Assembly (NCBI GenBank): GCA_014905825.1
Contig: JACGCN010000006.1
Span: forward strand, 1,674,001 to 1,738,000
DNA from: Lyophyllum atratum
Lineage: Eukaryota > Basidiomycota > Agaricomycetes > Agaricales > Lyophyllaceae
Direction: 5' to 3'
Length of the DNA stretch: 64,000 bases
Positions 39,122-53,999 of this stretch are shown here, piece after piece (the first letter of the stretch is position 1; each line of letters begins with the position of its first letter). The position numbers and the translations under genes were made by a program. The notes beneath the pieces were generated by a model that was not told the DNA's origin, did not search any database, and worked only from the letters and a program-made list of their open reading frames with translations.

Positions 39122-39309
39122 GGTTTTGGTTTTCCGTGCCTTTCAAATCCCTGACCGACTTCTCACGAGCCTTCAACTCGTCGAATTTTAGTACGTCCTC
39201 GTGACCCGTCTCGACGCTAACCTCTCGTGCATTTTTACATAGATTCGCTTTCCCACCGGGCCTAATTCTGCTCCTTCATCATCTTTACGTGCTAACACCT
39301 GATACCGTC

Positions 39310-39632
39310 ATGGCGGATGCAGCAGCCGCGGCAGCAGCATCAGGAGGCATTGGCCCGTCTACTAGCTCAGGTTCCAACTCGTCTACTGGACTTTTCTCGA
39401 TCGCAGCGCATATGCCTCTTCCTGGATCCTCGAACGCACCCAAGTTTAAAGGAAAGGACGTCAAAGACTTCCTCGACCTTCTCGAAAGCTACGCCAATCA
39501 ATCGGGACTACACTACACCAGCTTACCGCAATATGTCGAACGCTACTGCACCTCAAAAGTCAAGCGTGTACTTGAGGGTAATACTCTATGGGCTGGGACT
39601 GACTGGGCTGGGTGTCGAACTCATCTTACCAC
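39310..39632 (+). pseudogene. Outer element gag, N-terminal piece (cut by inner element)
   Basis: Starts at ATG 39310 (MADAAAAAAASGG), Ala/Ser-rich, then FKGKDVKDFLDLLESYANQSG, a gag-like capsid start. It runs into the inner element after RTHLTT. The frame resumes exactly at 49420 with LYESNDKTPAKTAERL once the inner element and one copy of ACCAC are removed. It is broken by insertion, not by point decay. Confidence 0.85.
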
Positions 39633-39740
39633 TGTTATGGATATAGTACCTTACCAAGTAGCTACTACTTCTTATGATACCTCTCCTAAAGTCTCGATAC
39701 ACAAATGTTAGCAAAGCCGGACAAATGCGAGCACACGCGA

Positions 39741-39864
39741 ACGCGACGTCATGGTTTGTTGTGCCTCACTCGGATCTGGCACATATCCGGTTCCGGCAGC
39801 AAACGCGACGTCATGGTTTGTTGTGCCTCACTCGGATCCGGCACATATCCGGTTCCGGCATCAA
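39741..39864 (+). repeat. Two tandem 62-bp units in the LTR (U3), each with a GACGTCAT site
   Basis: The unit starting ACGCGACGTCATGG occurs at 39741-39802 and 39803-39864, with two base differences (TCTGG/TCCGG and AGCAA/ATCAA). GACGTCAT is one base off the CRE consensus TGACGTCA bound by ATF/CREB-type bZIP factors. The pair lies 125-250 bp before the TATA box, where an enhancer would be expected. The copy in the 3' LTR is at 48879-49002. Confidence 0.85.
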
Positions 39865-39988
39865 ACGCGATCAAACCCGACGATTCGCCGAGCTGCGCGC
39901 CTCTTACAGATAATAGTAGAATCTTCTAGTATTCGACGCTCCCTCGGCACCTACTTCGACGATTGAGTCATCGCCGAAGACCCGCCAG

Positions 39989-39996
39989 TATATAAG
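39989..39996 (+). promoter_or_regulatory. TATA box of the inner element's LTR promoter
   Basis: TATATAAG, placed about 290 bp before the LTR end, so RNA would start near 40020 and R would begin there. The equivalent in the 3' LTR is 49127-49134. Confidence 0.6.
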
Positions 39997-40276
39997 ACAC
40001 GTAGTTTACTTGTACAGACTCCCGACTTCCAAATACATCGATTTTCGACTTACATCTGAGTGATCTAAGTACCTTTGCAAGATTGCAAAGTATTGACTCG
40101 TGAACTTACTATCTTAAGGACCAATAGATTTCTATTGCTCTGTCAACGTCTGATAAGACGGTTTGGAGATAGCTCACTCATCAATAAACTTAGAAACCTA
40201 CAGTGTGAAAGATCTTAGTATTGAACCGTGACGTTGCTAATCTAATCTTAGATAAGATTACCCGCGGATCGCAACA

Positions 40277-40293
40277 TTGGTGGACACACCCGG
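40277..40293 (+). other. Primer-binding site of the inner element
   Basis: TTGGTGGACACACCCGG begins immediately at the LTR edge (TGG from the second base), the normal place for tRNA-primed minus-strand synthesis. The tRNA partner was not identified. Confidence 0.55.
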
Positions 40294-40470
40294 AACTGAG
40301 AATTTTCAATAGCTCAGTTTCTATAGCCCCTTTGGTCTAACAAGACCTCTCATCTCTCTTATAATCCTCAGTGCATCTGCACGACACTTACTCTGGCAAA
40401 CATCATCACTTAGGTAACCTTCATCATCTTCATCTTTAAAACTAAAGTTTGTATTTTCAGATAATCAGCC

Positions 40471-43400
40471 ATGGCCGAGGTCGACGAAACCTCTCTCTCT
40501 AACACTCCTTCTTCGCTCACGTCATTGGATAGGATCTTGCCCGAAGCAGTGTTCGATCTGCCTGATTTTACCGAAATGGACCCTCCAGTTAGAAACCAAG
40601 ACATCATCAGCGAGCCAGCTGACACCAAGATTGATCTGCCATCTTTCGGCCCCTACCATCTCTATCGATCCAACAACGAGCTGGTGGATCGTCGGCTAGC
40701 CGCTCTGGATATCGGTGCTCGAAACCTCAACAAAACATTCTTACGCGAAGCTCCCAAGGTTTTCTCGCGCCGACTCCTCAAGGACATCTTCAATCATGAG
40801 TCCGCCCTCTTGGACGTCTTACTATCCGATTGCTTGAAGGTTTCTACGCTGACAGAGGAACGATTCGCGTTCTCAGTTAAGTACGATCATTACGCCAACC
40901 TCCTTTCCTTACTGCTGAAGATCAAGCAGAAACTCTCGGATATTTTGCTCGCTAATGCTGTACCAGTTCCCGATCTACCTATTTGGGGAGCCACCGGTGA
41001 CATTAACGTGTTTTATTGCGAAAATGAATTCGAGATCATCGGTATTTGTTTCAGAGCAGAAGTAGAACGGTTCCTAGCTATCTTTGACGAACACTACAAC
41101 TTTAACACGGACGTACCGCGCAACCCAGATCTGATACCCGCTCCCTTCGAGAACACTGATTATGAGCGCAACCTTGCATCGCCAACGAATCAAAGGAACC
41201 ACCGCGATACTCCTCCCCATCTCGAACAGCATCCACACAGCGAGGAGGGACAGGAACGTGGTTCAAGGTTCGAGGTGGGAGGTCCTAGAACGAGACGACC
41301 ATCTAACATTTATAACCAAGGAAATGTTACCGCTCGAGCAATGCAGGGACGAAGGACGCAACAGGCAGGTAACCGAGCTCCCACGTCTCGTATGAGGGAG
41401 GTATTAGTAAACATTGCGGAGACTTACGATCACAACAGGGCCCCGTCCTCAGCTTCGCGAGCGAACCATCGCTATCACGCTGGAGGTGGCCCTCCCGATG
41501 GGGATCCCAGTGACGATGAAGGAAATAATCCCAACGATGGACGTCGTAACGCCAGATCTCCAGGAGATCCTCGACGCTTCGATCGTGCGAATGATCCACA
41601 GAGACCCCGAGTACCACCAGGAGGACCTCCCGAGGATCCAGACGACGACGGAGGTAACGGACCACGCCGAGGTAATCGATCTCTCGGTGATCGACCTTCC
41701 CGACCGCAAGCCGAACCACATTTCGATCTAAAGCTCAAATTCGAGAACGTACCTAAATGGGACGGGAACACGGATAATATCGTACGGTGGTTATCAAAGG
41801 TGAATAATCTAGCTCGTATGTCCGCGACCGTCTTCACTCAATTGGGTACGGTAGTCCCGAAACGACTGGAAGGCGCAGCCGAGACCTGGTATTGGTCCCT
41901 TCCGCTTACCCACAGAGACTCGGTGGAGAAGAATTGGGACACATTGCGAGCTTGTATAACATCTTACTTTATGAATCGCAAATGGCTTGACAAACAGAAA
42001 GCTCGAGCCGTACGCGCTAGTTATAGGGAGTCAGGTCACGGTCGAGAAACTCCTAGTGAGTACTACATCCGTAAGGCGGAACTATTGAACACAGTATATA
42101 CACTGGAAGACTCCGAACTCATACTTGAGATAATGGAAGGAGCTCCCGCCAACTGGAACACCGTACTCACTACTCAGTTGTACGTAGATGTGATCGAATT
42201 CCAAAGCGCGATAAGATTCCATGAGGACATCTTAATGAGATTAGATGCCGGATCCGGAAATCTATATCGATCGGAGCGATCTGAAGCAAACAATTTCCGA
42301 GGCCCGGCCAACTATCGCGACCAATTCAGAAGTAATCCTAACGCTCGTACAAATTTAGTAGGAGCTTTCAGCACCCTCGAACCTCCCAAATTTCCTAAGG
42401 ACGATGCTAACGTTAGCCGGCGATCAGCTACTCCGGAACAGAAAGGCGCTAGACCATGTCGGCATTGTGGTAGTGGAAAGCACTGGGACAACGAGTGCAA
42501 GCACGCCTTCAAGGGAAATCGCGCTGCCCGGGCCAATCTCGTCACTACTTCAGACGAAGCCACTCGAGCGCAGCACGATTACGACGACCTTTACTATGGA
42601 TTGGACTCTGATATGGAGGAACAGGATTTTGATAGGTCCCTCCAGACTACCGCTGACCTTGCCTTAAACGAGGACTCAACGGACCTGGAGGGATTCCGCG
42701 TTACGGAGGATCAGGAGGGCTCAGGTCACAATAACTGGTCAGCCTTTTCTACTTCTGATTCCCCGTCGTTCAACTCAGCTTCTTTAAATACTGCGTGCGA
42801 GCCATTCAACGTTAAACCTCCCCTCAATCGTAGAACCCGTCGACGGCTCGCGAGAGACATCTCGGCTACCAACTACCTTATACGAGCGGAGGACGATCCT
42901 CATACAGTGGGACGAACAGTACAACTCAAGAAACATATGGCGCGACCACCGGGATGTTCCTTTCTCGGCGCTCGCGCTACGCAAACCACTGCTACAGTTG
43001 GAGGCGTTGACCTGGACCCTATGAACGTCATTATCGACTCCGGATCCGACATCACCCTTATCTCGGAAGAGATGCTCGGCTCGCTAACCTCGAAACCCAA
43101 GGCACGACAGGGTCAGAAGATCAACCTTATCCAAGTCACAGGTACGAGTTCTATATCTGGATTCGTTGATATTGACCTATATTTCCACACACAGGAAGGA
43201 CCAGTTAAACTCAGCGTCGAAGCCTACGTTGTGAAAGGTATGACTACACCATTCATCCTCGGCAACGATTTCGCTGATCAGTACGGTCTATCTATTAAAC
43301 GCGAGGAGGGCCAAGCCTATATAGTCTTTGGCGACTCAGGTCGTATCTTACCAGTCGATAACTCTACGGCTCAGCCATTAACCGACCAAGGAGGACATGC

Positions 43401-46400
43401 GTTTAAAATCAGGACTCAGCATCCAACGTTCGCCACCATCCCTCGGCACCGCGCTCACCGTAAAAGTCAGAAGAAGAAGAAGGATTTCAAACGGGCTTTT
43501 GGTAACACAGAAGTACGAGCCGCCGTACGCACGGTCATTCCCTCGGGTGTTAGCAAGCTAGTTCCCTTACGCGTTTCATTTCCACCAGGTATCGAGACTC
43601 TGTTCATTCAACGAAACCTTGACCATGGAGGGAACATAGATGACTTATATGGGAGCGCCGACTCCATCATCTCCAAAGAGAACCCCGTTCTCCATATCGC
43701 CAATTTTTCGACATCGCCAATCGTTATCTCTGAAGGTCAACTTCTGGGCAACGGTCGTAATCCGCGCACTTGGTTGGACAAGGAAAGTAAGCTAACTCCT
43801 TCGCAGAAAACTGCCGTTCAGCAGCAGTCGCAACTAATTCAGGCCGTCATCGCAGCCCGATTTAATGCAGAAGTGAGTACCGTCTCAAGTCAGACTGAGA
43901 TTTCCTCGAAGGCCCAACGCAACGCCACGGAAATCGACGATCCGCTCGCCGAAGAACCTCTGGAGGGTGGTCCCAAGACCTCTGAAGCCCCTTTCGATTC
44001 GCCTTCTGCCGATCAACTTTTATCCGAGGTCGGAATTTCGAAAGATCTTACAGAGGACCAGCGGGGGAGATTGGAGACGTTACTTCTACGCCATAAACAG
44101 GTCTTCGGCTTGGACGGTCGTTTAGGGCATTACGATGAACGGGTCGATATACCTATGAAACCTAATGCTACTCCGATTTCACTACCGCCGTTTCCTGCTT
44201 CCCCAGCTAAGCGTGAGGTGATAGATAAGCAGATGGACTCATGGATCAAGCTCGGCGTTATTGAGCCATCGAAGAGCCCCTGGGCTGCACCGGTGTTCAT
44301 AGTCTATCGAAATGGAAAACCGCGTATGGTTATTGACCTAAGGAGACTTAATGAGATGGTTATTCCGGACGAATTTCCCATCCCTAAACAAGAAGATATC
44401 CTGCAAGCTCTTACAGGATCACAATGGTTAACGACCCTCGACGCTCTCGCCGGATTCACGCAACTTACCATGTCAGATAGTGCCGCCGAGAAACTCTCGT
44501 TTCGCACACATCGAGGTCTATGGCAGTTTAGGCGCATGCCCTTTGGGTATAGGAACGGTCCGAGTGTTTTCCAACGCATCATGCAGAAGGTATTAGCACC
44601 TTTCTTATGGATATTCGCACTGGTTTACATCGACGATATTGTGGTATTTTCATTAACATTCGATGACCATCTAAAACACTTGGATCAGGTGTTTACCGCT
44701 ATTATCGAGGCTAACATAACCCTTTCCCCATCCAAATGTCACTTCGCGTACCAGTCGCTACTCCTACTTGGGCAAAAGGTTTCACGATTAGGTCTTTCAA
44801 CTCATAAGGAGAAAGTTGACGCTATCTTACAGCTAGATATCCCTAAAAGCGTTAATGAGTTACAAATCTTCCTGGGCATGATGGTATACTTCTCGGCCTA
44901 CGTACCTTTTTATGCCTGGATTGCTCATCCCTTGTTTCAACTCCTTAAAAAAGAGAATGACTGGGAATGGACAGAACTGCATCAGGAAGCCTTCGAGCTA
45001 TGCAAACAGGTACTCACAAACGCCCCAGTACGAGGGTACTCCATGCCAGGAAAGCCCTATCGAGTCTATACGGATGCTTGCGATTACGGCTTAGCAGATA
45101 TCGTGCAACAGGTTCAGCCGATCGCCATACGAGACCTAAAAGGTACTAAAATGTATGAGCGGCTGCAAAAGGCATTCAAGAACAAGGAATCCGTACCAAC
45201 CCTAGTCCCGACTCTCTCAAAAGAATTTAATGATGTTCCTCCACCTGGAGATTGGGGCGAGTCTTTCGAAGAAACCGTTGTCCATGTAGAGCGCGTTATC
45301 AGCTACTGGTCTCGCGTCTTAAAATCTGCTGAACGAAACTACTCACCCACCGAACGCGAAGCGTTGGCACTCAAGGAAGCATTGATAAAATTCCAACCCT
45401 TCTTGGAAGGAGAGCAGGTACTCGCCATTACTGACCACGCGGCGCTAACATGGAGTAAGACCTTTCAGAACGTCAATCGCCGGTTACTTACGTGGGGAAC
45501 AGTTTTCTCGGCCTACCCAAATCTTAAAATCATACACCGCGCCGGCAGGGTACACTCCAACGTCGACCCTATCTCCCGACTTCGACGACGAGTACCACCC
45601 GAGACTGGGCCAGCGACCGATGATATCCGAACTCTGAGGTTGTCCTCTGGTGAAGATCCTCTGAGGGATATGTTCTCTGAGTTAGGAGAACGCTTTGAGG
45701 AGAAAGTTCTGACAGTCGCGTCTAGATTCGTCAAAACAGAGGAGTTAAGGGACGTAGAAGTCTTCGCCTACAAAGCCGACCCTGTACTGATCGAGTCCGA
45801 TCTAGGAACGCCGGCTATTTCCCTACCATACGTCACTTCCAGCTCTTACTCGGTTATCGTCGGAATCTCGAAGGACGAAATCTCACGTTGGGTCAAAGCA
45901 TATTCGTTGGATTCACACTTCAAGGAGGTCATTAAGGGGTGGAAAGGTGAAAAGAATTGGAGTAATCCTTTGTACCCCCAATACCATTACAGCGAGGACG
46001 GATTAATCTATTTTGAGGATTGGCAGGGAAGCAATCGACTGTGTGTCCCTAGTTCGCTTCGCGCCGAGATTATGAATGAGGTCCACAATACCATCTCCGA
46101 GGCTGCGCACGCCGGGTATCACAAAACATACAACCGCTTGGCGTCTACATACTACTGGCCTCGCATGTCACGAGAACTCAAATTATTCACCAACTCTTGT
46201 GACATCTGCCAAAAGTCAAAGCCGCGACGTACTGCACCTAAAGGCCTGCTTCAGCCGATCCCTATTCCTTCCCATCCCTTTGAAGTAGTCACGATGGATT
46301 TTATACCTGAGCTACCTCTCTCGGATGGGTATGATAACGTCTTAGTTATCGTGGACAAACTAACAAAATATGGAATATTCATTCCCTGTTCCACTACTAT

Positions 46401-47598
46401 TACCGAGGATGAAACCGCTAAACTATTCTTCAAGCATGTCATTTCTCAGTATGGCATTCCGCGTCAAGTCATCACTGATCGCGATACGCGTTGGCGCCAT
46501 GATTTCTGGAAGGAGATCTGCCGCCTCATGGGCATGACGAGGTCACTCACCACCTCCTTTCACCCTCAAGCTGATGGTCAATCCGAGATCCTTAACCAGA
46601 CGCTCGAAATTGCGTTGCGCGCGTACATCGCCCAGACAAGAGATGACTGGACGGACCATTTAGACGCGTTAGCACTATCCTACAATTCAACACCCCATAC
46701 CGCTACCACTTTCGCTCCAGCCTACTTACTACGCGGATACACCCCTATAACGGGATCCACTCTAATCTGTGACCCGCAATCGGGTGTCTTACGTCCAGGC
46801 CCGTCCGATATCTCAAACCCCGTAATCCTTAGCGAAAAGGCTGGCGAAATGGTAGAACACTTCGAATCAGATCGCAAACGAGCTAAGGAAGCTCTTCTAC
46901 TCTCTCAGGTACACCAGCAACGAGCATATAATAAAGGACGACTCATTACCGAGTTTGAGGAGGGTGATCAAGTAGTCATCAACCCTCACTCGCTGAAACT
47001 ACTCAAAAAGGAATCCGGGCGCGGACAGAAGCTGTTAATGCGTTACGACGGCCCTTTTGAAATCTTGAGAAAGCTAAGTCCTGTGACATATCAGCTACGC
47101 ATGCCAGCGTCCTATGGCATTCACCCAATCATTAATATTGCCCACTTAGAATCATACAAAGATTCGCCATCCGAATTTGGTGACAGGCCGACGCGGAGGC
47201 TGAACAGAGAAGACTTCGACGAACGCCCAGAGTACGACGTCGACGAGATAATTGCTGAACGATACCGCAAACGAGGACATCGACGCATTCGTGAGTTCCG
47301 GACACGGTTTACTGGATTCGGGCCTGAAGCCGATGAGTGGCTCAAGTTAGCCGATCTCCAGAACGCCCCGCTCGTCCTCAAGGCTTGGGAAAACCGACAG
47401 AAAACCTCGAACAATATCACATCCAGGGTTAGATATCTGCGAGGGAACGCAAGCGCCCCAAAAACTCTCCAAGCGATCACACACGAGGCGGAGGAAAGGT
47501 CAGCTGAACTTAATATCACGGAGGTAACTATACATGAGGCGCGCGCAGGGTCTCCCGAAAATAGAGGAACCTCGCAGAATGTCACCCGCCTCTTTTGA
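40471..47598 (+). CDS. Inner element Gag-Pol polyprotein (2375 aa), intact
   Basis: One uninterrupted ORF from ATG 40471, so no frameshift is needed to make Pol. In order: an N-terminal domain of about 240 residues of unknown role; a Pro/Asp/Arg-rich linker; gag capsid (WDGNTDNIVRWLSKVN, near residue 430); one CCHC knuckle CRHCGSGKHWDNEC (Cys663); protease with IIDSGSDITLIS (Asp856); reverse transcriptase with VYIDDIVVFS (1386-1389); RNase H starting YTDACDYGLADIVQQ and carrying an insertion of about 60 residues before YWSRVLKSAERNYSPTEREA; integrase with HAGYHK...CDICQK and Asp1943, Asp2003, Glu2039 (DD35E); and a C-terminal chromodomain-like part YDVDEIIAERYRKRG...FTGFGPEADEW. All catalytic residues are present. 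The chromodomain-like end suggests chromatin-directed insertion; its aromatic cage looks incomplete. Confidence 0.95.
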   Translation: MAEVDETSLSNTPSSLTSLDRILPEAVFDLPDFTEMDPPVRNQDIISEPADTKIDLPSFGPYHLYRSNNELVDRRLAALDIGARNLNKTFLREAPKVFSRRLLKDIFNHESALLDVLLSDCLKVSTLTEERFAFSVKYDHYANLLSLLLKIKQKLSDILLANAVPVPDLPIWGATGDINVFYCENEFEIIGICFRAEVERFLAIFDEHYNFNTDVPRNPDLIPAPFENTDYERNLASPTNQRNHRDTPPHLEQHPHSEEGQERGSRFEVGGPRTRRPSNIYNQGNVTARAMQGRRTQQAGNRAPTSRMREVLVNIAETYDHNRAPSSASRANHRYHAGGGPPDGDPSDDEGNNPNDGRRNARSPGDPRRFDRANDPQRPRVPPGGPPEDPDDDGGNGPRRGNRSLGDRPSRPQAEPHFDLKLKFENVPKWDGNTDNIVRWLSKVNNLARMSATVFTQLGTVVPKRLEGAAETWYWSLPLTHRDSVEKNWDTLRACITSYFMNRKWLDKQKARAVRASYRESGHGRETPSEYYIRKAELLNTVYTLEDSELILEIMEGAPANWNTVLTTQLYVDVIEFQSAIRFHEDILMRLDAGSGNLYRSERSEANNFRGPANYRDQFRSNPNARTNLVGAFSTLEPPKFPKDDANVSRRSATPEQKGARPCRHCGSGKHWDNECKHAFKGNRAARANLVTTSDEATRAQHDYDDLYYGLDSDMEEQDFDRSLQTTADLALNEDSTDLEGFRVTEDQEGSGHNNWSAFSTSDSPSFNSASLNTACEPFNVKPPLNRRTRRRLARDISATNYLIRAEDDPHTVGRTVQLKKHMARPPGCSFLGARATQTTATVGGVDLDPMNVIIDSGSDITLISEEMLGSLTSKPKARQGQKINLIQVTGTSSISGFVDIDLYFHTQEGPVKLSVEAYVVKGMTTPFILGNDFADQYGLSIKREEGQAYIVFGDSGRILPVDNSTAQPLTDQGGHAFKIRTQHPTFATIPRHRAHRKSQKKKKDFKRAFGNTEVRAAVRTVIPSGVSKLVPLRVSFPPGIETLFIQRNLDHGGNIDDLYGSADSIISKENPVLHIANFSTSPIVISEGQLLGNGRNPRTWLDKESKLTPSQKTAVQQQSQLIQAVIAARFNAEVSTVSSQTEISSKAQRNATEIDDPLAEEPLEGGPKTSEAPFDSPSADQLLSEVGISKDLTEDQRGRLETLLLRHKQVFGLDGRLGHYDERVDIPMKPNATPISLPPFPASPAKREVIDKQMDSWIKLGVIEPSKSPWAAPVFIVYRNGKPRMVIDLRRLNEMVIPDEFPIPKQEDILQALTGSQWLTTLDALAGFTQLTMSDSAAEKLSFRTHRGLWQFRRMPFGYRNGPSVFQRIMQKVLAPFLWIFALVYIDDIVVFSLTFDDHLKHLDQVFTAIIEANITLSPSKCHFAYQSLLLLGQKVSRLGLSTHKEKVDAILQLDIPKSVNELQIFLGMMVYFSAYVPFYAWIAHPLFQLLKKENDWEWTELHQEAFELCKQVLTNAPVRGYSMPGKPYRVYTDACDYGLADIVQQVQPIAIRDLKGTKMYERLQKAFKNKESVPTLVPTLSKEFNDVPPPGDWGESFEETVVHVERVISYWSRVLKSAERNYSPTEREALALKEALIKFQPFLEGEQVLAITDHAALTWSKTFQNVNRRLLTWGTVFSAYPNLKIIHRAGRVHSNVDPISRLRRRVPPETGPATDDIRTLRLSSGEDPLRDMFSELGERFEEKVLTVASRFVKTEELRDVEVFAYKADPVLIESDLGTPAISLPYVTSSSYSVIVGISKDEISRWVKAYSLDSHFKEVIKGWKGEKNWSNPLYPQYHYSEDGLIYFEDWQGSNRLCVPSSLRAEIMNEVHNTISEAAHAGYHKTYNRLASTYYWPRMSRELKLFTNSCDICQKSKPRRTAPKGLLQPIPIPSHPFEVVTMDFIPELPLSDGYDNVLVIVDKLTKYGIFIPCSTTITEDETAKLFFKHVISQYGIPRQVITDRDTRWRHDFWKEICRLMGMTRSLTTSFHPQADGQSEILNQTLEIALRAYIAQTRDDWTDHLDALALSYNSTPHTATTFAPAYLLRGYTPITGSTLICDPQSGVLRPGPSDISNPVILSEKAGEMVEHFESDRKRAKEALLLSQVHQQRAYNKGRLITEFEEGDQVVINPHSLKLLKKESGRGQKLLMRYDGPFEILRKLSPVTYQLRMPASYGIHPIINIAHLESYKDSPSEFGDRPTRRLNREDFDERPEYDVDEIIAERYRKRGHRRIREFRTRFTGFGPEADEWLKLADLQNAPLVLKAWENRQKTSNNITSRVRYLRGNASAPKTLQAITHEAEERSAELNITEVTIHEARAGSPENRGTSQNVTRLF

Positions 47599-47646: not shown

Positions 47647-47656
47647 TATTTAAAGG
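47647..47656 (+). promoter_or_regulatory. Possible internal TATA-like box before the extra ORF
   Basis: TATTTAAAGG lies 101-110 bp before the ATG at 47757 and is followed by a CT-rich leader ending ATCTCTAAATC. The layout is like a fungal core promoter and suggests the extra ORF could be transcribed by itself. Alternatively the CAG-ending pyrimidine tract near 47679-47682 could be a splice acceptor for a subgenomic RNA. Inference only. Confidence 0.35.
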
Positions 47657-47756
47657 CTCGTATCATTCTCACTTTTCTTCAGTCTCTCGACACCTGCATC
47701 TCTCACACTCAGCACCTCTATTCTCAGCGTCTTTTCGCCCTCATCATCTCTAAATC

Positions 47757-48557
47757 ATGCCTGCCGTACACTCCACCGCTGTCACGTTCGTCGCACACCC
47801 CACCATGCGCGAACTTGAACGCGTTATCAAGAACCCGTTCCTCAAGACCCTTTTTCGCGGGGCTATCAGTTCCTTGCTCCTGGACTACGCGTTCAACCCA
47901 CTCGACATCGTTCCCCACCTCAACATCGGCCTCACTACCTACTCCCTCGAGCCCCGTATCGCTACGACGCTCTGGACCAACATCCTTAAGATTGCGCAGG
48001 TCATTCACTGCTCGGCGCTCGATTTTAACCCGTACACCACGAGCGAACCACTGCCCGTCGCCATTCCCTACGACCGATTCCGCGCCCTCACACTTCACGC
48101 ACCAGTAATTTCCCTCGCCCTCCAAGCGCCCCACCGCAACCCTCTGCTCGACGAATTCCTCACCATCGAAGAAGTTCAAGAGCGCGTCGCGCGCGTACAA
48201 CACTTCGGGCACTACTACATTCGTTGGATTGGTTCTGGGATCGAGCGCGCCGTTGCTCTAGGAGAGAATGCTAAGGGATGGAACTGGGGGGCATATTGGG
48301 GTCTCTCCTGGGAAGAGTTCTTGGAACATGTGGAAGCGCACACGCCGGTACGAAAGGTTCCCCTTCCTACCTACGATAGTGCCGCCATCAATCACTCCCT
48401 CGCGCTCATCCTACACCCTACTCATTCCCACGCGGCCCGTCGCGCTACCAACATACTTGCAGGTCATATTCCTACCGAATCGCGCGGCAGAGTCGCTCTT
48501 CCTATCGGGTTGGCTGATACCCCGTTCTACACACGCTTCACCGACTTGTTCATTTGA
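47757..48557 (+). CDS. Extra 266-aa ORF of unknown function inside the inner retrotransposon
   Basis: Intact ORF between pol (ends 47598) and the 3' LTR (starts 48771), the place where env or accessory genes sit in some gypsy elements. It starts MPAVHSTAVTFVAHPTMRE and ends YTRFTDLFI. I do not recognise it. It has no signal peptide, no convincing membrane helix, no furin-like site and no zinc motif, so it does not look like an envelope protein. It is Trp/His/Pro-rich with local blocks GWNWGAYWGLSWEEFLEHVE and HYYIRWIGSGIERAV. Its codons end mostly in C (CTC, CGC, GTC, AAC), unlike the mixed, more T/A-ending codons of the neighbouring pol, which hints at a separate origin such as host gene capture. 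Absence of stops over 266 codons in a TE is itself evidence that it is, or was until recently, a working gene. Confidence 0.8.
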   Translation: MPAVHSTAVTFVAHPTMRELERVIKNPFLKTLFRGAISSLLLDYAFNPLDIVPHLNIGLTTYSLEPRIATTLWTNILKIAQVIHCSALDFNPYTTSEPLPVAIPYDRFRALTLHAPVISLALQAPHRNPLLDEFLTIEEVQERVARVQHFGHYYIRWIGSGIERAVALGENAKGWNWGAYWGLSWEEFLEHVEAHTPVRKVPLPTYDSAAINHSLALILHPTHSHAARRATNILAGHIPTESRGRVALPIGLADTPFYTRFTDLFI

Positions 48558-48756: not shown

Positions 48757-48770
48757 GACTGGGGGGGCTA
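48757..48770 (+). other. Polypurine-tract-like sequence of the inner element
   Basis: GACTGGGGGGGCTA directly before the 3' LTR. The G7 run would serve as plus-strand primer. It is not a perfect purine run. Confidence 0.45.
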
Positions 48771-49414
48771 TGTTATGGATATAGTACCTTACCAAGTAGC
48801 TACTACTTCTTATGATACCTCTCCTAAAGTCTCGATACACAAATGTTAGCAAAGCCGGACAAATGCGAGCACACGCGAACGCGACGTCATGGTTTGTTGT
48901 GCCTCACTCGGATCTGGCACATATCCGGTTCCGGCAGCAAACGCGACGTCATGGTTTGTTGTGCCTCACTCGGATCCGGCACATATCCGGTTCAGGCATC
49001 AAACGCGATCAAACCCGACGATTCGCCGAGCTGCGCGCCTCTTACAGATAATAGTAGAATCTTCTAGTATTCGACGCTCCCTCGGCACCTACTTCGACGA
49101 TTGAGTCATCGCCGAAGACCCGCCAGTATATAAGACACGTAGTTTACTTGTACAGACTCCCGACTTCCAAATACATCGATTTTCGACTTACATCTGAGTG
49201 ATCTAAGTACCTTTGCAAGATTGCAAAGTATTGACTCGTGAACTTACTATCTTAAGGACCAATAGATTTCTATTGCTCTGTCAACGTCTGATAAGACGGT
49301 TTGGAGATAGCTCACTCATCAATAAACTTAGAAACCTACAGTGTGAAAGATCTTAGTATTGAACCGTGACGTTGCTAATCTAATCTTAGATAAGATTACC
49401 CGCGGATCGCAACA
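48771..49414 (+). repeat. 3' LTR of the inner element
   Basis: 644 bp, same length as 39633-40276 and one base different. It contains the 62-bp tandem pair (48879-49002) and TATATAAG (49127-49134). Followed by the second ACCAC target copy. Confidence 0.96.
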
Positions 49415-49419
49415 ACCAC

Positions 49420-51730
49420 CTTATATGAATCGAACGACAAAACGCCAGCTAAAACGGCGGAAAGACTTCGAGTTTGGACCGATAACCACGGCACCCACGG
49501 ACATATAGGTAGCCTCCAAGACGCCGATAAGTATTATCGAGATTTCACCCAATTATCTGCACGACTCGTAACTGACGGTAACATTCTGTTGAACGATTTG
49601 AACCTTTGTTTCTATAGAGGAATCCCTACCGAACTGCGCCTTCGCGTCAAGAAGAGAATCCCTGTCGCTAACCATAAACAGAAGAATGCTCCTAGTGTCT
49701 TGGTGGTACGAGATTTTCTACGGGCCGAATTCGAAGACGACGACCTGGACTCTCGTGTCGACTTATCGAGCATCGCTTTGGACGACTCTAGTTCTGACGA
49801 ATCCGAAGCAGACATTGATGTCTCGTCGATTAAAAAGAAGAAGTCGGTAACGTTCCACATTCCGACAGAGAAGATTGTACCCGCGGCCAGCAGTAATGAC
49901 GCTTCGACCTCAATGACGTCCGTGGATCGACTTACGAGGGAACTTCGAGAGCTCAAGCAGGCGAACATGGAACTCATTCGTAAAGCGCCGAAAGCTGAGG
50001 CGTATCTTCCCCCTACTGAATTGGAAAACCTGACTAACCAACTTCGTGAACTACGGATAGCGAACGCTGAACTGATGAAAAAGAACGGTTTACCTCCCCA
50101 AAGTTACTACCCGAACAGTACGAACCGTGACGCAACCTGCTACATGTGCGACATGGTGGGTACCCATCGCCTCGGAATCAAGAACTGCCCAGAAACGCGT
50201 CGCTTGATAGCGGAGGAATTGGCTAAGTTTGATATGTATGGCAAACTCGTATGCATTGACGGTTCTGATCTCCCTAGAGCTATGGGCGGCGGTATTGCCA
50301 AAGCCGTTCGCGACGCTCGCGCTGCCCTGAAGGATTTAAAAGGTAAAGGGAGGGCCGATTACCGCGATCAGCCCCCCCACATGTCCAACTTTGCGGGCTT
50401 GGTTTATGAGGGAAACGATGTCTTTTCTGATGAAGTTTTCGGCGTGAATACAGCTTCTCCTATCCCGGCCTGGCGTGCACTAGCCGCTCCAGTAACACGT
50501 TCGGGTAAAGATACTAACCGTACAGATCCTTTGAAACGACCAGCTCCCAAGACGAAGCCAGATCCACCGACGATTCCCCGAGTACCACCATCCGACCGCG
50601 ACATCGAGCGCAAACTACAGACGACCGAACCCCAAGCTAAAGTGCCGACTCCAGTGAAGAAACCGACGGAGTACACTCGACCGACCAACGTGCCCGTGCC
50701 CCCGACCGTAAATACGCGAGAAGGACTCAAGAACGCCAAGAAAGCTGCTAAACCGGACTACGACATGCATGACTCGACGAACAAGAACCCTCCAGCGAAA
50801 ACCGCACCAGCATACCATTTCACGTCGACTGTTCAGGAATCTTACGACGCGGACGCCCTTCAAGAAAAGATTCTCGCTACGTCTATCACTTTATCTTTAC
50901 GTGACTTACTCGGTGCATCTCCAGAGCTTCAACGCCGTTTCGCCAACCTTACGAAAACGAGACGAGAGTATACCGATAAACCCGTCACTGCTAACCTTGT
51001 AGAAATGATAGAAGACGAACCCTGTTACTCCGACCACGACCGACGCTTTGTATCAGCAACCCTCGAAGCTGACGACGATTTTGAAGACTCGTTCTTTTTG
51101 CCCGAGATTACCGAGTCACGCGTTCAAGTAAACTACGACCCCAACGAGGACGACGAGAACGACATCTATCGACGTTACGCCATGGCTATCAAGATTCACC
51201 CCCAACCTCTCTATGCGATGGTTACTGGGCGTTTCGAGGGAAAATTCGGCGACATTTCGGCCTCCTTCATGGTCGACACGGGATCCGAACTCAACCTTAT
51301 ATCATCAGGCCTCTATGATCGCACGAGCCTCGCCCTCGATTTGGACGGAACTCGCTGGTCGCTCAAAGGTATCAATGGAAACCCTGTTCAACTTGGTGGC
51401 TGCGTCCGAGATGCCCCCGTCGCCATCTCGGGCCATCGGTTTGACCATCACTTCTTCGTTTCTATGAGTGGAGTTGGATCTGATCGTCAAGACATTATTC
51501 TAGGACAGCCATGGCTTCAATGGTATAGCGCCTCAGTTAACTACACTCGTAGAGGGCACATGCAAATGCGTCTGTGGAAGAACGGTGATCAAGGCGATGA
51601 CCCGCCCACGCTTTCTATTCCCCTTTGTACGCCTGATGCTGCTCGCAACGCTAAAACTTTGAACCAGGGGTGTCGTCATCATTCCAAGAATGAAGAAGGT
51701 GACGGACATCATTTACATTCGGAAAACTGA
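49420..51730 (+). pseudogene. Outer element gag (remainder) and protease
   Basis: Continues the gag frame cut at 39632. Seen: LRVWTDNHGTHGHIGSLQDADKYY (capsid), a coiled region with two near-repeat blocks (RELRELKQANMELIRK and QLRELRIANAELMKK), an atypical zinc knuckle CYMCDMVGTHRLGIKNC, and an aspartic protease with FMVDTGSELNLIS (DTGS at 51275-51286) and IILGQPWLQWY. The frame ends with TGA 51728-51730 just as pol opens in the -1 frame. Adding one A to the AAAA run at 51723-51726 would fuse gag-pr with pol, so this is either programmed -1 shifting or a homopolymer miscall. Confidence 0.85.
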
Positions 51731-53220
51731 AGACGGGCTCGTGTCCAAAGACTGCTTTACAACAGGACGTGTCCGTTCCTTGCTTTGGCCGAACTCTCCA
51801 AACATTAACCGGTTCTTATTCTATCGAAGATTCTCCTGAGCTAATTGATTTGTGCCCCCCAGATTCGTATGATCATATCCTTCGTCAAGTTGCTTTTGCT
51901 TCCCCAGATTCCGACCCTAGTTCTCAGGTACCGACTCCATGGACCCAGCGTGCGTTTTCAGAACCAAGTAGACTAACCGCCCTTCAAACTAGAACGAAAT
52001 ACAAGACCGTAGACCGAAAGGTCCGCCCCGTCCAAAGTTATATGCCTGACCCGGCCGGCCAAGTCTTCAAGCCCGTAATTATTCCAACTTTACCTCCGTT
52101 GACCTTAGACCCGACTCCTGTAGCAAACTTTGTCCCTTCCGCCCGTCTAACTCGTGAACGATTAGATGCGATCCTATTGACCGTCCATCCAGATTTCTTA
52201 AAGCCGAGAGAAATTGATCTTTTAGTTAGTGTCCTTCGCAACCGCGACCAAGCCCTGGCCTTTGAAGATTCGGAACGCGGTACGTTCTCGGATAAATACT
52301 TCCCTGACTATGAAATTCCTGTTATAGAACATACGCCTTGGGTACAAGAACCGATACGGATCCCTAAAGCCATCGAAGACACGGTGCGAGACATGCTAAA
52401 AACCCAGATAGCTGCGAACAAGTACGAACATTCTACTGCCTCTTATCGCTCACGGATATTTGCAGTTGCGAAGAAGGGTGGAATTCGCCTGGTACAAGAT
52501 GTACAAGAATTAAATAAAGTTACGGTACGCGATGCTGGACTCCCTCCTCGTATTGACGACTTCGCCGAAGGTTTCGTGGGTCGAGTCATCTACGGATTGG
52601 CGGACTTATTTGCAGGATATGACGGACGGCGTCTAGCACTGGTTTCACGGCCACTCACGACGTTTGCATGTACCCTGGTTGGCCCGCTTCGATCATGCGG
52701 TCTACCTCAAGGAGCGACCAACTCCGTTCCAGAATTTCAACGATGCACGAACCATACACTCGTGGAAGAGATCCCCCACAACGGTAACGTCTTTATTGAC
52801 GATGCAGGAATCATGGGCCCGAAGACTTGGTACAACAACGAAGAAGTAGCTCCCGGAATTCGTCGAGTGGTATATGAGTATGCGGTGATATTTGACCGTT
52901 TCCTTGCCCGTTTTATAGAGGCTGGAGTAACCGCATCCGGAAAGAAGCTCGTATTAGCCACCCCAAGACTCCATATCGTCGGGTCCATAGTTTCCGCAGA
53001 AGGCTGGCATCTCGAGCATGGCCTTGTGTCGAAAATAGTCAAGTGGCCTGTACCTTTAAATGTCACTGACGTTCGTTCTTTCCTAGGGACAGCTGGAGTT
53101 GGTCGAAAATGGATTCGGGGATTCTCCCTAATTGCGAAACCACTGACGCTTTTGACCAGGATTACGGACCGAGACTTCTATTTCGACGACAATGCCCATG
53201 AGGCGATGGCAGCGCTCAAG
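51703..53220 (+). pseudogene. Outer element reverse transcriptase region (3' end cut by a TIR element)
   Basis: Open frame from 51703. RT motifs: SRIFAVAKKGGIRLVQDVQELNKVT, YGLADLFAGYDGR, LPQGATNSVPEFQR, and the active-site FIDDAG (52792-52803, FIDD in place of the usual Y-I/V-DD), then DVRSFLGTAGVGRKWIRGF. Divergent from the inner element's RT, so the two belong to different Ty3/gypsy lineages. The frame breaks at 53221 where the 768-bp element was inserted. Confidence 0.87.
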
Positions 53221-53999
53221 AGGAATGACGAGTGTAGTGGGAATGGGATATATCCCACTATCAGCTCTTGTATTCTATATAGTGGGATCAGCTCCTTATT
53301 AGTGGTATTGGCTCCGTAATAGTGGGATTGCCTCTATAATAATGGGATGCTGATACTGATAGTGGGATCGGATTTTTTGTTAGTGGGATGATGAGGACAT
53401 CTGGAAGCCGGGCCCCGGCGTCGTTACGGAGGTCTGTGCGGCGTTGTGTTGCGCTCCGAGTCCTGGGAAAGCAACTATTCGGGGCTCGGTAAGGAGTGGA
53501 TTGCCTGGATTTTCCGGTCAATAGTGACGATGAACAGAGCAAATATTACTCACAAAGTCCCGATATCCTCTGATACTCTTCTGAGAGAGACCCAGATCGT
53601 CGTCATCCTTGGCATCAGCATTGCTAGCAGACATTCCTGTAAGGCTAACTGTGACAGTTCCGGAACAAAGGTGAGTGCAGGGTACTCACATTCAACGGCC
53701 GTCGGCCGGGCATTATTTGAAGCGGCTTGGGCCTAGACATGGTGGGTAACGCGCCCAAGAGTGACGGCTGAACGTTGAGGTTGGTGTTGGAGGATGTCGC
53801 GGAGTTTGAATCGCCGATTTGGCGGCGGAACACACATGCCATTGCCCGACCCCGGACCTGATCCCACTATCACACATCCAATCCTACTCTGACGCGGCAT
53901 CCATCGAACTATCAAGGATCCATCCCACTTTTTCATTACCATCCCACTATTTATATATTATCCCATTCCCACTACGCTGGTATAGACTCAGCGCTCAAG
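53210..53999. repeat. 11-bp target duplication around the TIR element
   Basis: CAGCGCTCAAG at 53210-53220 and 53989-53999. Collapsing the two copies rejoins the RT frame (MAALK) to the RNase H frame (ELVSSAPVLV) without loss. Confidence 0.88.
53221..53988. mobile_element. Non-autonomous 768-bp DNA transposon (MITE-like) with AGTGGGAT repeats
   Basis: Ends are imperfect inverted repeats: both sides carry GTAGTGGGAATGGGATA (5' from 53234; 3' as its reverse complement to about 53975) with the outermost 13 bases only partly matching. Inside each end the octamer AGTGGGAT recurs several times in opposing orientation (for example near 53277, 53318, 53363, 53385, and as ATCCCACT near 53861, 53922, 53940), a pattern of subterminal transposase-binding sites. 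The 10-11-bp target duplication is closest to Mutator-like elements; 8-bp families such as hAT or KDZ fit less well. No transposase ORF. Exon-like pieces on the minus strand (53842-53553) may be a captured or relic gene fragment. Confidence 0.82.

Follow-up and report, generated by a model that had tools for sequence, protein, structure and literature searches.

A selected third open reading frame downstream of pol in a fungal Ty3/gypsy lineage, probably expressed from its own mRNA

A 64,000-nucleotide stretch of the Lyophyllum atratum genome (contig JACGCN010000006.1, positions 1,674,001 to 1,738,000; hereafter the window) carries a Ty3/gypsy retrotransposon with an intact open reading frame (ORF) of 266 aa, here called ORF3, between Gag-Pol and the 3' long terminal repeat (LTR). 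The locus raises the question of whether ORF3 is a host fragment that one element picked up or a gene that belongs to the element. A preliminary description, made from the letters of the window, had seen it as an unfamiliar gene on a fresh element and had suggested from its codon use a different origin, for example capture from the host. We find that ORF3 is a selected accessory gene that has stayed with its lineage, and it is very likely native to this lineage of fungal Ty3/gypsy elements, which has a weak chromodomain match. Because relatives of the element carry ORF3, selection preserves it and it appears to have a switch of its own, we regard it as a working part of the element rather than a stray piece of the host. 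The element is indeed young, but to call ORF3 the cargo of a fresh insertion undersells a gene of long standing in the lineage.

A six-frame search of the 64.8-Mb L. atratum genome returned 23 stretches matching ORF3, the window included, of which 17 are free of stops over 255 or more residues. One further copy (C62) is identical to the window ORF3, while the remaining matches are 43-65% identical by the search tool's count. Among the 20 other loci fetched, ORF3 is open over 261-273 aa with an MP start in 16 (the C-terminus is changed in L014) and truncated or broken in L025, L026, L027 and L028. From the side of the integrase (106 of 234 candidates scored, insertion counts being lower bounds), we define close insertions by a match that includes the integrase end and is 77-100% identical, counting the window's own. 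There are at least 19 of these (18 matches at 81% or more and one copy whose match falls in two parts, at 88% and, over the end, 77%), and ORF3 follows immediately downstream in each of them, with at least 261 aa open in 17/19. At C86:416200-435400 (L013, L024), an element with ORF3 seems to have inserted into another of the same family, and an integrase fragment at C86:429557 is apparently the other half of the element split in this way.

The sister clade, with integrases 65-69% identical, has at least 19 matches that reach the integrase end. In the 13 insertions for which the region after pol was read (L029-L033, L041-L048), a distant ORF3 homologue is present in every case, and all match P0009, an ORF3 relative from outside this genome. 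Five of these loci were tested with core-clade queries and all match (tblastn E down to 3e-10); the three fully aligned sister ORF3s are 22-25% identical to that of the window. P0010 is another relative from elsewhere, P0006 from Hypsizygus marmoreus is 40% identical, and in P0008, a predicted protein from another data set, a piece of the integrase core is continuous with an ORF3-like stretch, which by its sequence links ORF3 to integrase outside this genome. ORF3 is older than the split of the two integrase clades, and capture by the window element is therefore unsupported. With the same ORF in the same position in independent insertions and under purifying selection, ORF3 is an accessory gene in the sense of an accessory ORF (aORF). 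In a clade with integrases 42-44% identical, the third ORF of the three members read (L034, L062, L063) is a different one. This ORF also lies after pol and is longer, at 488 to >799 aa (L034:665-2599, L062:704-3100, L063:686-2152); that of L034 matches nothing in Pfam and shows no detectable relationship with ORF3, and the TATA-like motif described below is absent from the 300 bases before the ORF in all three.

Within one subfamily, purifying selection on ORF3 is strong, with dN/dS (omega) at 0.02-0.04; together with the open frames at 16/20 fetched loci, this makes ORF3 more than a product of chance. By Nei-Gojobori counts, L015/L019 differ by 89 synonymous and 9 nonsynonymous changes (omega 0.020), L015/L020 by 71 and 10 (0.032), L019/L020 by 69 and 10 (0.033), and two pairs with L022 by 72 and 11 and by 68 and 11 (0.034 and 0.038). 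L023/L024 shows 11 synonymous changes and 1 nonsynonymous change, and L012/L016 has an omega of 0.13 at a synonymous divergence (dS) of 1.17. The preliminary description had proposed the sister copies and their dN/dS as a check on ORF3, and both come out in its favor, omega being low in the pairs where dS is readable. Its statement that ORF3 has been kept open likewise stands on the sister copies, but not on the argument from near-identical LTRs: these do differ by one base only, at LTR position 224 (C/A), yet they carry little information on duration. Some comparisons run counter to this picture of constraint. The young trio L012/L013/L014 shows no synonymous differences and 1-3 nonsynonymous ones, L016/L018 none and 1; nonsynonymous differences alone are what is expected of very young copies that no longer matter. 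In addition, dS is saturated between the other subfamilies (1.2 to infinite), where omega, at 0.08-0.32 when finite, is indicative only.

Between subfamilies, ORF3 is 47-75% identical at the amino-acid level, far less than the reverse transcriptase (RT; 85-93%) and similar to the pol C-terminus (49-72%). This identity correlates with the identity of gag (r 0.914, 36 pairs), protease (PR; 0.868, 36), RT (0.803, 45), integrase (0.891, 36) and the pol C-terminus (0.956, 21), as expected under joint inheritance; by the same token, correlations with every part tested (r 0.80-0.96) are unhelpful to any functional assignment, as they single out no partner for ORF3. Codons ending in C are commoner in ORF3 than in Gag-Pol, as first described (47% versus 29.6%), and since the value for ORF3 is 0.37-0.52 in every subfamily tested, we read them as a maintained bias and not as the trace of a recent capture. 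Among L015, L019 and L020, the synonymous divergence of ORF3 is 0.51-0.76 compared to 1.7 to saturated for gag, PR, RT and integrase, or roughly two to four times lower, with the short pol C-terminus (67 codons) intermediate at 0.86-1.74. This could be due either to a strong preference for C-ending codons or to gene conversion. Identity along the element peaks in ORF3 and drops on both sides in L019/L020 and L015/L019; pulling the other way, it stays high downstream of ORF3 in L020/L015, and in L012/L016 identity in ORF3 is not above that of the neighboring bins.

The preliminary description had also placed a box and a CT-rich leader ahead of ORF3 and thought separate expression possible. Both features are there, the box being TATTTAAAGG with the leader 3' of it, and comparison of the upstream sequences makes an internal promoter for ORF3 likely. 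A TAT(A/T)(A/T)A(A/T) motif lies 80-130 bases upstream of the ATG in 9/11 lineages, against 0.18 expected from 400 dinucleotide shuffles per lineage, and the sequences that flank it in sister copies look unrelated to those of the core clade. In 8/8 core-clade copies (the window copy W, L010, L012, L016, L019, L020, L023, L028), the A of a YCAG follows the TATA-like motif by 32-35 bases, as scored with a slightly wider TATA pattern and an allowed spacing of 28-42 (L015 is outside this test); in the window, this A (47681) is 34 nt past the first T of the box. Such a spacing fits the distance from a TATA box to the start of transcription. There are reasons to discount these signals: the 11 lineages are related, and both the TATA pattern and the interval were picked after viewing the alignment; L015 is without a TATA box, L023/L024 have only a variant (TATATTAA, ~180 nt upstream of the ATG), and YCAG at the core spacing occurs in 0/3 of the sister copies tested.

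A second line of evidence comes from the sister clade, in which ORF3 genes are interrupted at four sites (A-D) by stretches with GT and AG ends. These measure 61 nt at site A, after VWQ (L031, L033); 57 nt at site B, after HALPQ (L043, L044); 54 nt at site C, after LQ or MQ (L043, L044, L046, L048), or 53 nt by manual count with an unusual AAG end (L047); and 56, 54, 54, 54 and 53 nt at site D, within LSK (L029, L030, L041, L042, L045, respectively). Because the copies within a site are related, site D represents one event and not five. Stops occur inside the stretch in 2/2 copies at site A, 4/5 at site C and 4/5 at site D, and at sites A and D the flanking frames are consistent with removal even though the lengths differ modulo 3. 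The stretches are common to copies at different places and thus moved with them by reverse transcription, which means that the copied RNA was unspliced there; if they are introns, a different, spliced RNA must serve as template for the ORF3 protein. A separate ORF3 mRNA is favored because the intron-like stretches would then require a spliced RNA and a TATA-like box is present, and judging from these signals, the mRNA for ORF3 is probably a separate, 3'-coterminal one. Less easily accommodated are site B and the L048 stretch, which keep an open frame in phase and could be coding sequence. At the VWQ and HALPQ sites, the stretch ends in a repeat of the exon end, in what looks like intron gain by tandem duplication.

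One alternative for expression is a spliced, retrovirus-like subgenomic mRNA from the 5' LTR, in which a donor in or near the leader is spliced to TTCTTCAG as acceptor at 47682, with TATTTAA being incidental. The conservation of YCAG past a pyrimidine-rich stretch in the core clade would suit an acceptor, and possible donors exist in the leaders of the window copy (GTAACC), L035 (GTAATT) and L036 (GTAACA). These three are, however, the only ones among the seven leaders between LTR and gag ATG to contain GT(A/G)A, which is missing from L037-L040, and a GT(A/G)NG(T/C) donor is found in 0/7 (donors internal to the LTR fall outside this check). Splicing from the 5' LTR also leaves unexplained both the recurrence of the TATA-like motif and its 32-35 nt spacing, and the three sister copies tested retain the TATA-like box without YCAG; we consider this route unlikely. 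The window leader contains an intron-like pair of its own, GTAACC...TTTCAG, spanning 47 nt at 40414-40460 (-57 to -11 from the gag ATG). Among the seven leaders, only L035 has a comparably close pair just before the gag ATG, whereas L036 and L038 have one farther upstream only and L037, L039 and L040 have none.

Returning to the internal promoter, RNA polymerase II would transcribe ORF3 from it into a short mRNA that ends in the 3' LTR, presumed to serve as the polyadenylation site for genomic RNA and ORF3 mRNA alike. In sister elements, this short mRNA would be spliced while the introns are kept in genomic RNA. With less confidence, the protein would act in trans on the genomic RNA or Gag of its own element, most likely aiding the nuclear exit or packaging of unspliced genomic RNA.

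The protein itself gives few clues. As first described, it has no recognizable family and no membrane anchor of the sort seen in retroviral or errantiviral envelopes: Pfam returns nothing in ORF3 at E<=1, Foldseek gives no structural match, and the highest 19-residue Kyte-Doolittle mean is 1.03 (0.92-1.31 across 14 family members). AlphaFold2 runs on 7 and on 9 sequences gave models with mean predicted local distance difference test (pLDDT) values of 66.8 and 75.4. In the better one, a core at residues 41-190 has block means of 80-92 and includes a beta hairpin (51-64) and long helices (66-88, 137-171). The protein looks soluble and mostly helical. The core clade and P0006 conserve W-x-W-G-(A/S)-(Y/M)-W-G and, further on, ILHP(T/S/A)xS; a motif of the ILHP type occurs twice in some sister versions (e.g., L031, L041, P0009, P0010) and once in L043, L046 and L048. 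P0009 and P0010 have acidic tails.

By analogy with known systems, ORF3 is likely an accessory regulator of the element, a role already suggested in the preliminary description and still plausible. The nearest parallel is Cer1, a Ty3/gypsy element of Caenorhabditis elegans with a non-envelope ORF between pol and the 3' LTR; its protein CERV is translated from a spliced mRNA, and unspliced genomic RNA needs it in order to be exported (PMC10309623, in the sections consulted). According to the same sections, CERV has no obvious homology outside nematodes and is highly divergent between species, in both of which it resembles ORF3. The two are compared by description: CERV has 517 aa and a 5-exon mRNA with exons 1-3 in the gag frame, and the sections consulted leave implicit that the remaining exons are the ORF between pol and LTR (PMC10309623), whereas ORF3 has 266 aa, begins at a start codon of its own and is probably driven by a separate promoter. 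A CERV-like action on the export or packaging of genomic RNA is thus a tentative proposal, and some function other than those discussed here is likewise a possibility to be held loosely. Counting against an export role, it leans on analogy and on the sister introns, the window ORF3 itself is without an intron, and Pfam finds no export, RNA-binding or localization signal (no dedicated predictor was run). The fuller scheme of two RNA programs, a long unspliced genomic RNA driven by the LTR and a short mRNA from the internal promoter that is spliced in sisters, may be entertained only as a speculative one, and we would put no greater trust in its further component, that the short mRNA encodes a protein of new fold that lets genomic RNA escape the nucleus or splicing.

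Two other functions have been weighed. ORF3 could be a regulator of assembly or copy number derived from the N-terminal domain of the element's own Gag, similar to Ty1 p22, which comes from an internal transcript (PMC5834202, in the parts used here). Profile comparison pairs ORF3 residues ~17-100 with Gag residues ~91-167, scoring 24.8 for the window Gag piece (P 0.012), and seven Gag sequences score 21.2 versus at most 19.7 in 60 column shuffles; identities of Gag and ORF3 also correlate, as given above. With 17 Gag sequences, however, the score is 19.5 and 1/100 shuffles is higher (0/60 in the former set), an unrelated Pol piece scored 21.3, and hhalign probabilities are ~1-2%. With hhalign P values of 0.012-0.057, any relation to Gag is marginal, and a role in Gag-related assembly or copy-number control, by this descent, appears improbable. 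Alternatively, ORF3 could counteract silencing or activate transcription from the promoters of the element. This is compatible with an own promoter, a fast-evolving sequence and the acidic tails of P0009 and P0010, and an internal promoter exists in foamy viruses (PMC7828637, in the parts used here), but Pfam finds no DNA-binding domain in ORF3, and we doubt that it acts in anti-silencing or transcription.

Capture of a host gene fragment once by the window element has the codon use of ORF3, unlike that of pol, in its favor, but this bias is common to every subfamily tested, ORF3 is present in all close insertions and all sister insertions read, and L026 and L027, fetched matches without adjacent pol, adjoin stretches like the elements' downstream, LTR-containing parts; a simple one-off event of this kind is refuted, and capture by the window element is extremely improbable. 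The matches examined (which leave out C130:330386, of 55 residues) adjoin pol or LTR-like remains, with no host homologue found outside element remains; a highly diverged host parent is possible, as is an old capture that predates the split of the clades.

The carrier is a young Ty3/gypsy element, with two LTRs, a target site duplication and the order PR, RT, RNase H, integrase in pol (Table 1). Gag-Pol and ORF3 are both open, and the ORF3 ATG begins 158 bases past the Gag-Pol stop codon. The Pfam match to Chromo is weak, at 16.3 bits versus a cut-off of 25.1. The motif of the primer binding site is (nearly) common to all seven leaders read, which represent both clades (window, L035-L040), and the sequence directly 3' of the 5' LTR, TTGGTGGACACACCCGGAA (window 40277-40295), is the same in 7/7. 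A third copy of the window-type Gag (98%) lies at C75:2621940-2622434, close to a contig end that leaves ORF3 out of view. In the window, the element apparently splits an outer element of a different type (39289-39632 and 49420-53319), of which an ORF at 49589-51730 matches DUF4100 (E 1e-60) and an aspartic protease and precedes an ORF that matches RT weakly.

Table 1. Features of the ORF3-bearing element, in window coordinates
Feature	Position	Strand	Remarks
Target site duplication ACCAC (left)	39628..39632	.	
5' LTR, 644 bp, TG...CA	39633..40276	+	
TATATAAG box in 5' LTR, presumed part of the LTR promoter	at 39989	+	
Putative primer binding site TGGTGGACACACCCGGAAC	40278..40296	+	
Gag-Pol ORF, 2375 aa: PR, RT, RNase H, integrase, weak chromodomain	40471..47598	+	Pfam
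Chromodomain-like stretch, Pol C-terminus, residues 2255-2309	47233..47397	+	Pfam E 0.0093, below curated cut-off
TATTTAAAGG, putative TATA box of ORF3 internal promoter	47647..47656	+	
TCAG, putative initiator (transcription start) or alternatively 3' splice site	47679..47682	+	A at 47681
ORF3, 266-aa accessory protein	47757..48557	+	
G-run of putative polypurine tract	48761..48767	+	
3' LTR, 644 bp	48771..49414	+	
Target site duplication ACCAC (right)	49415..49419	.	

When compared to other retroelements, ORF3 shares single traits with several. Foamy viruses, in which the internal promoter presumably serves tas/bet, are of a different virus family and are likened to the ORF3 element by description. 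They have a second promoter within the provirus and accessory genes near the 3' LTR (PMC7828637). The p22/p18 copy-number control factor of Ty1, also a fungal LTR element, is small, acts in trans and arises from an internally started transcript (PMC5834202, PMC4599808, PMC8458377), but ORF3 is a separate gene with at best a marginal relation to Gag. In bdelloid rotifers, non-envelope ORF3s occupy the env position and are family-specific acquisitions, several of them enzymatic (GDSL, DEDDy) (PMC5408684), whereas the fungal ORF3 matches no enzyme family and is inherited with its lineage. The 3' aORFs of plant LTR retrotransposons lie beside gag-pol, some of them downstream of pol, are conserved within lineages and are often without known relatives and obscure in function (PMC11728184); unlike these, ORF3 has a fungal host, a TATA-like box and intron-like stretches in sister copies, and the parts of PMC11728184 used here contain no sequence comparison with fungi. 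While third ORFs downstream of pol are known from plant, rotifer and nematode elements (PMC11728184, PMC5408684, PMC10309623), the portions used of a survey of fungal LTR elements mention no such ORF (PMC3248453). A literature search at the level of titles and abstract openings did not find the ORF3 family, which is no proof of absence from print. Relative to the libraries searched, such a family in a fungus, with its TATA-like box footprinted and intron-like stretches in sister copies, is new, and ORF3 represents a new family of LTR-retrotransposon accessory proteins in fungi.

Plants and a few animals are known to have LTR retrotransposons with extra ORFs, whose function is mostly unexplained in the portions of these sources used here (PMC11728184, PMC5408684). 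In the case of ORF3, a single genome holds many insertions over which selection can be measured, and comparison of lineages footprints the putative expression signals; the question of what a retrotransposon accessory protein does thus becomes directly testable. If the scheme of two RNA programs is true, ORF3 would play in fungi the part that Rev and CERV play elsewhere, having evolved independently, and this accessory gene of a retroelement would have acquired introns within it.
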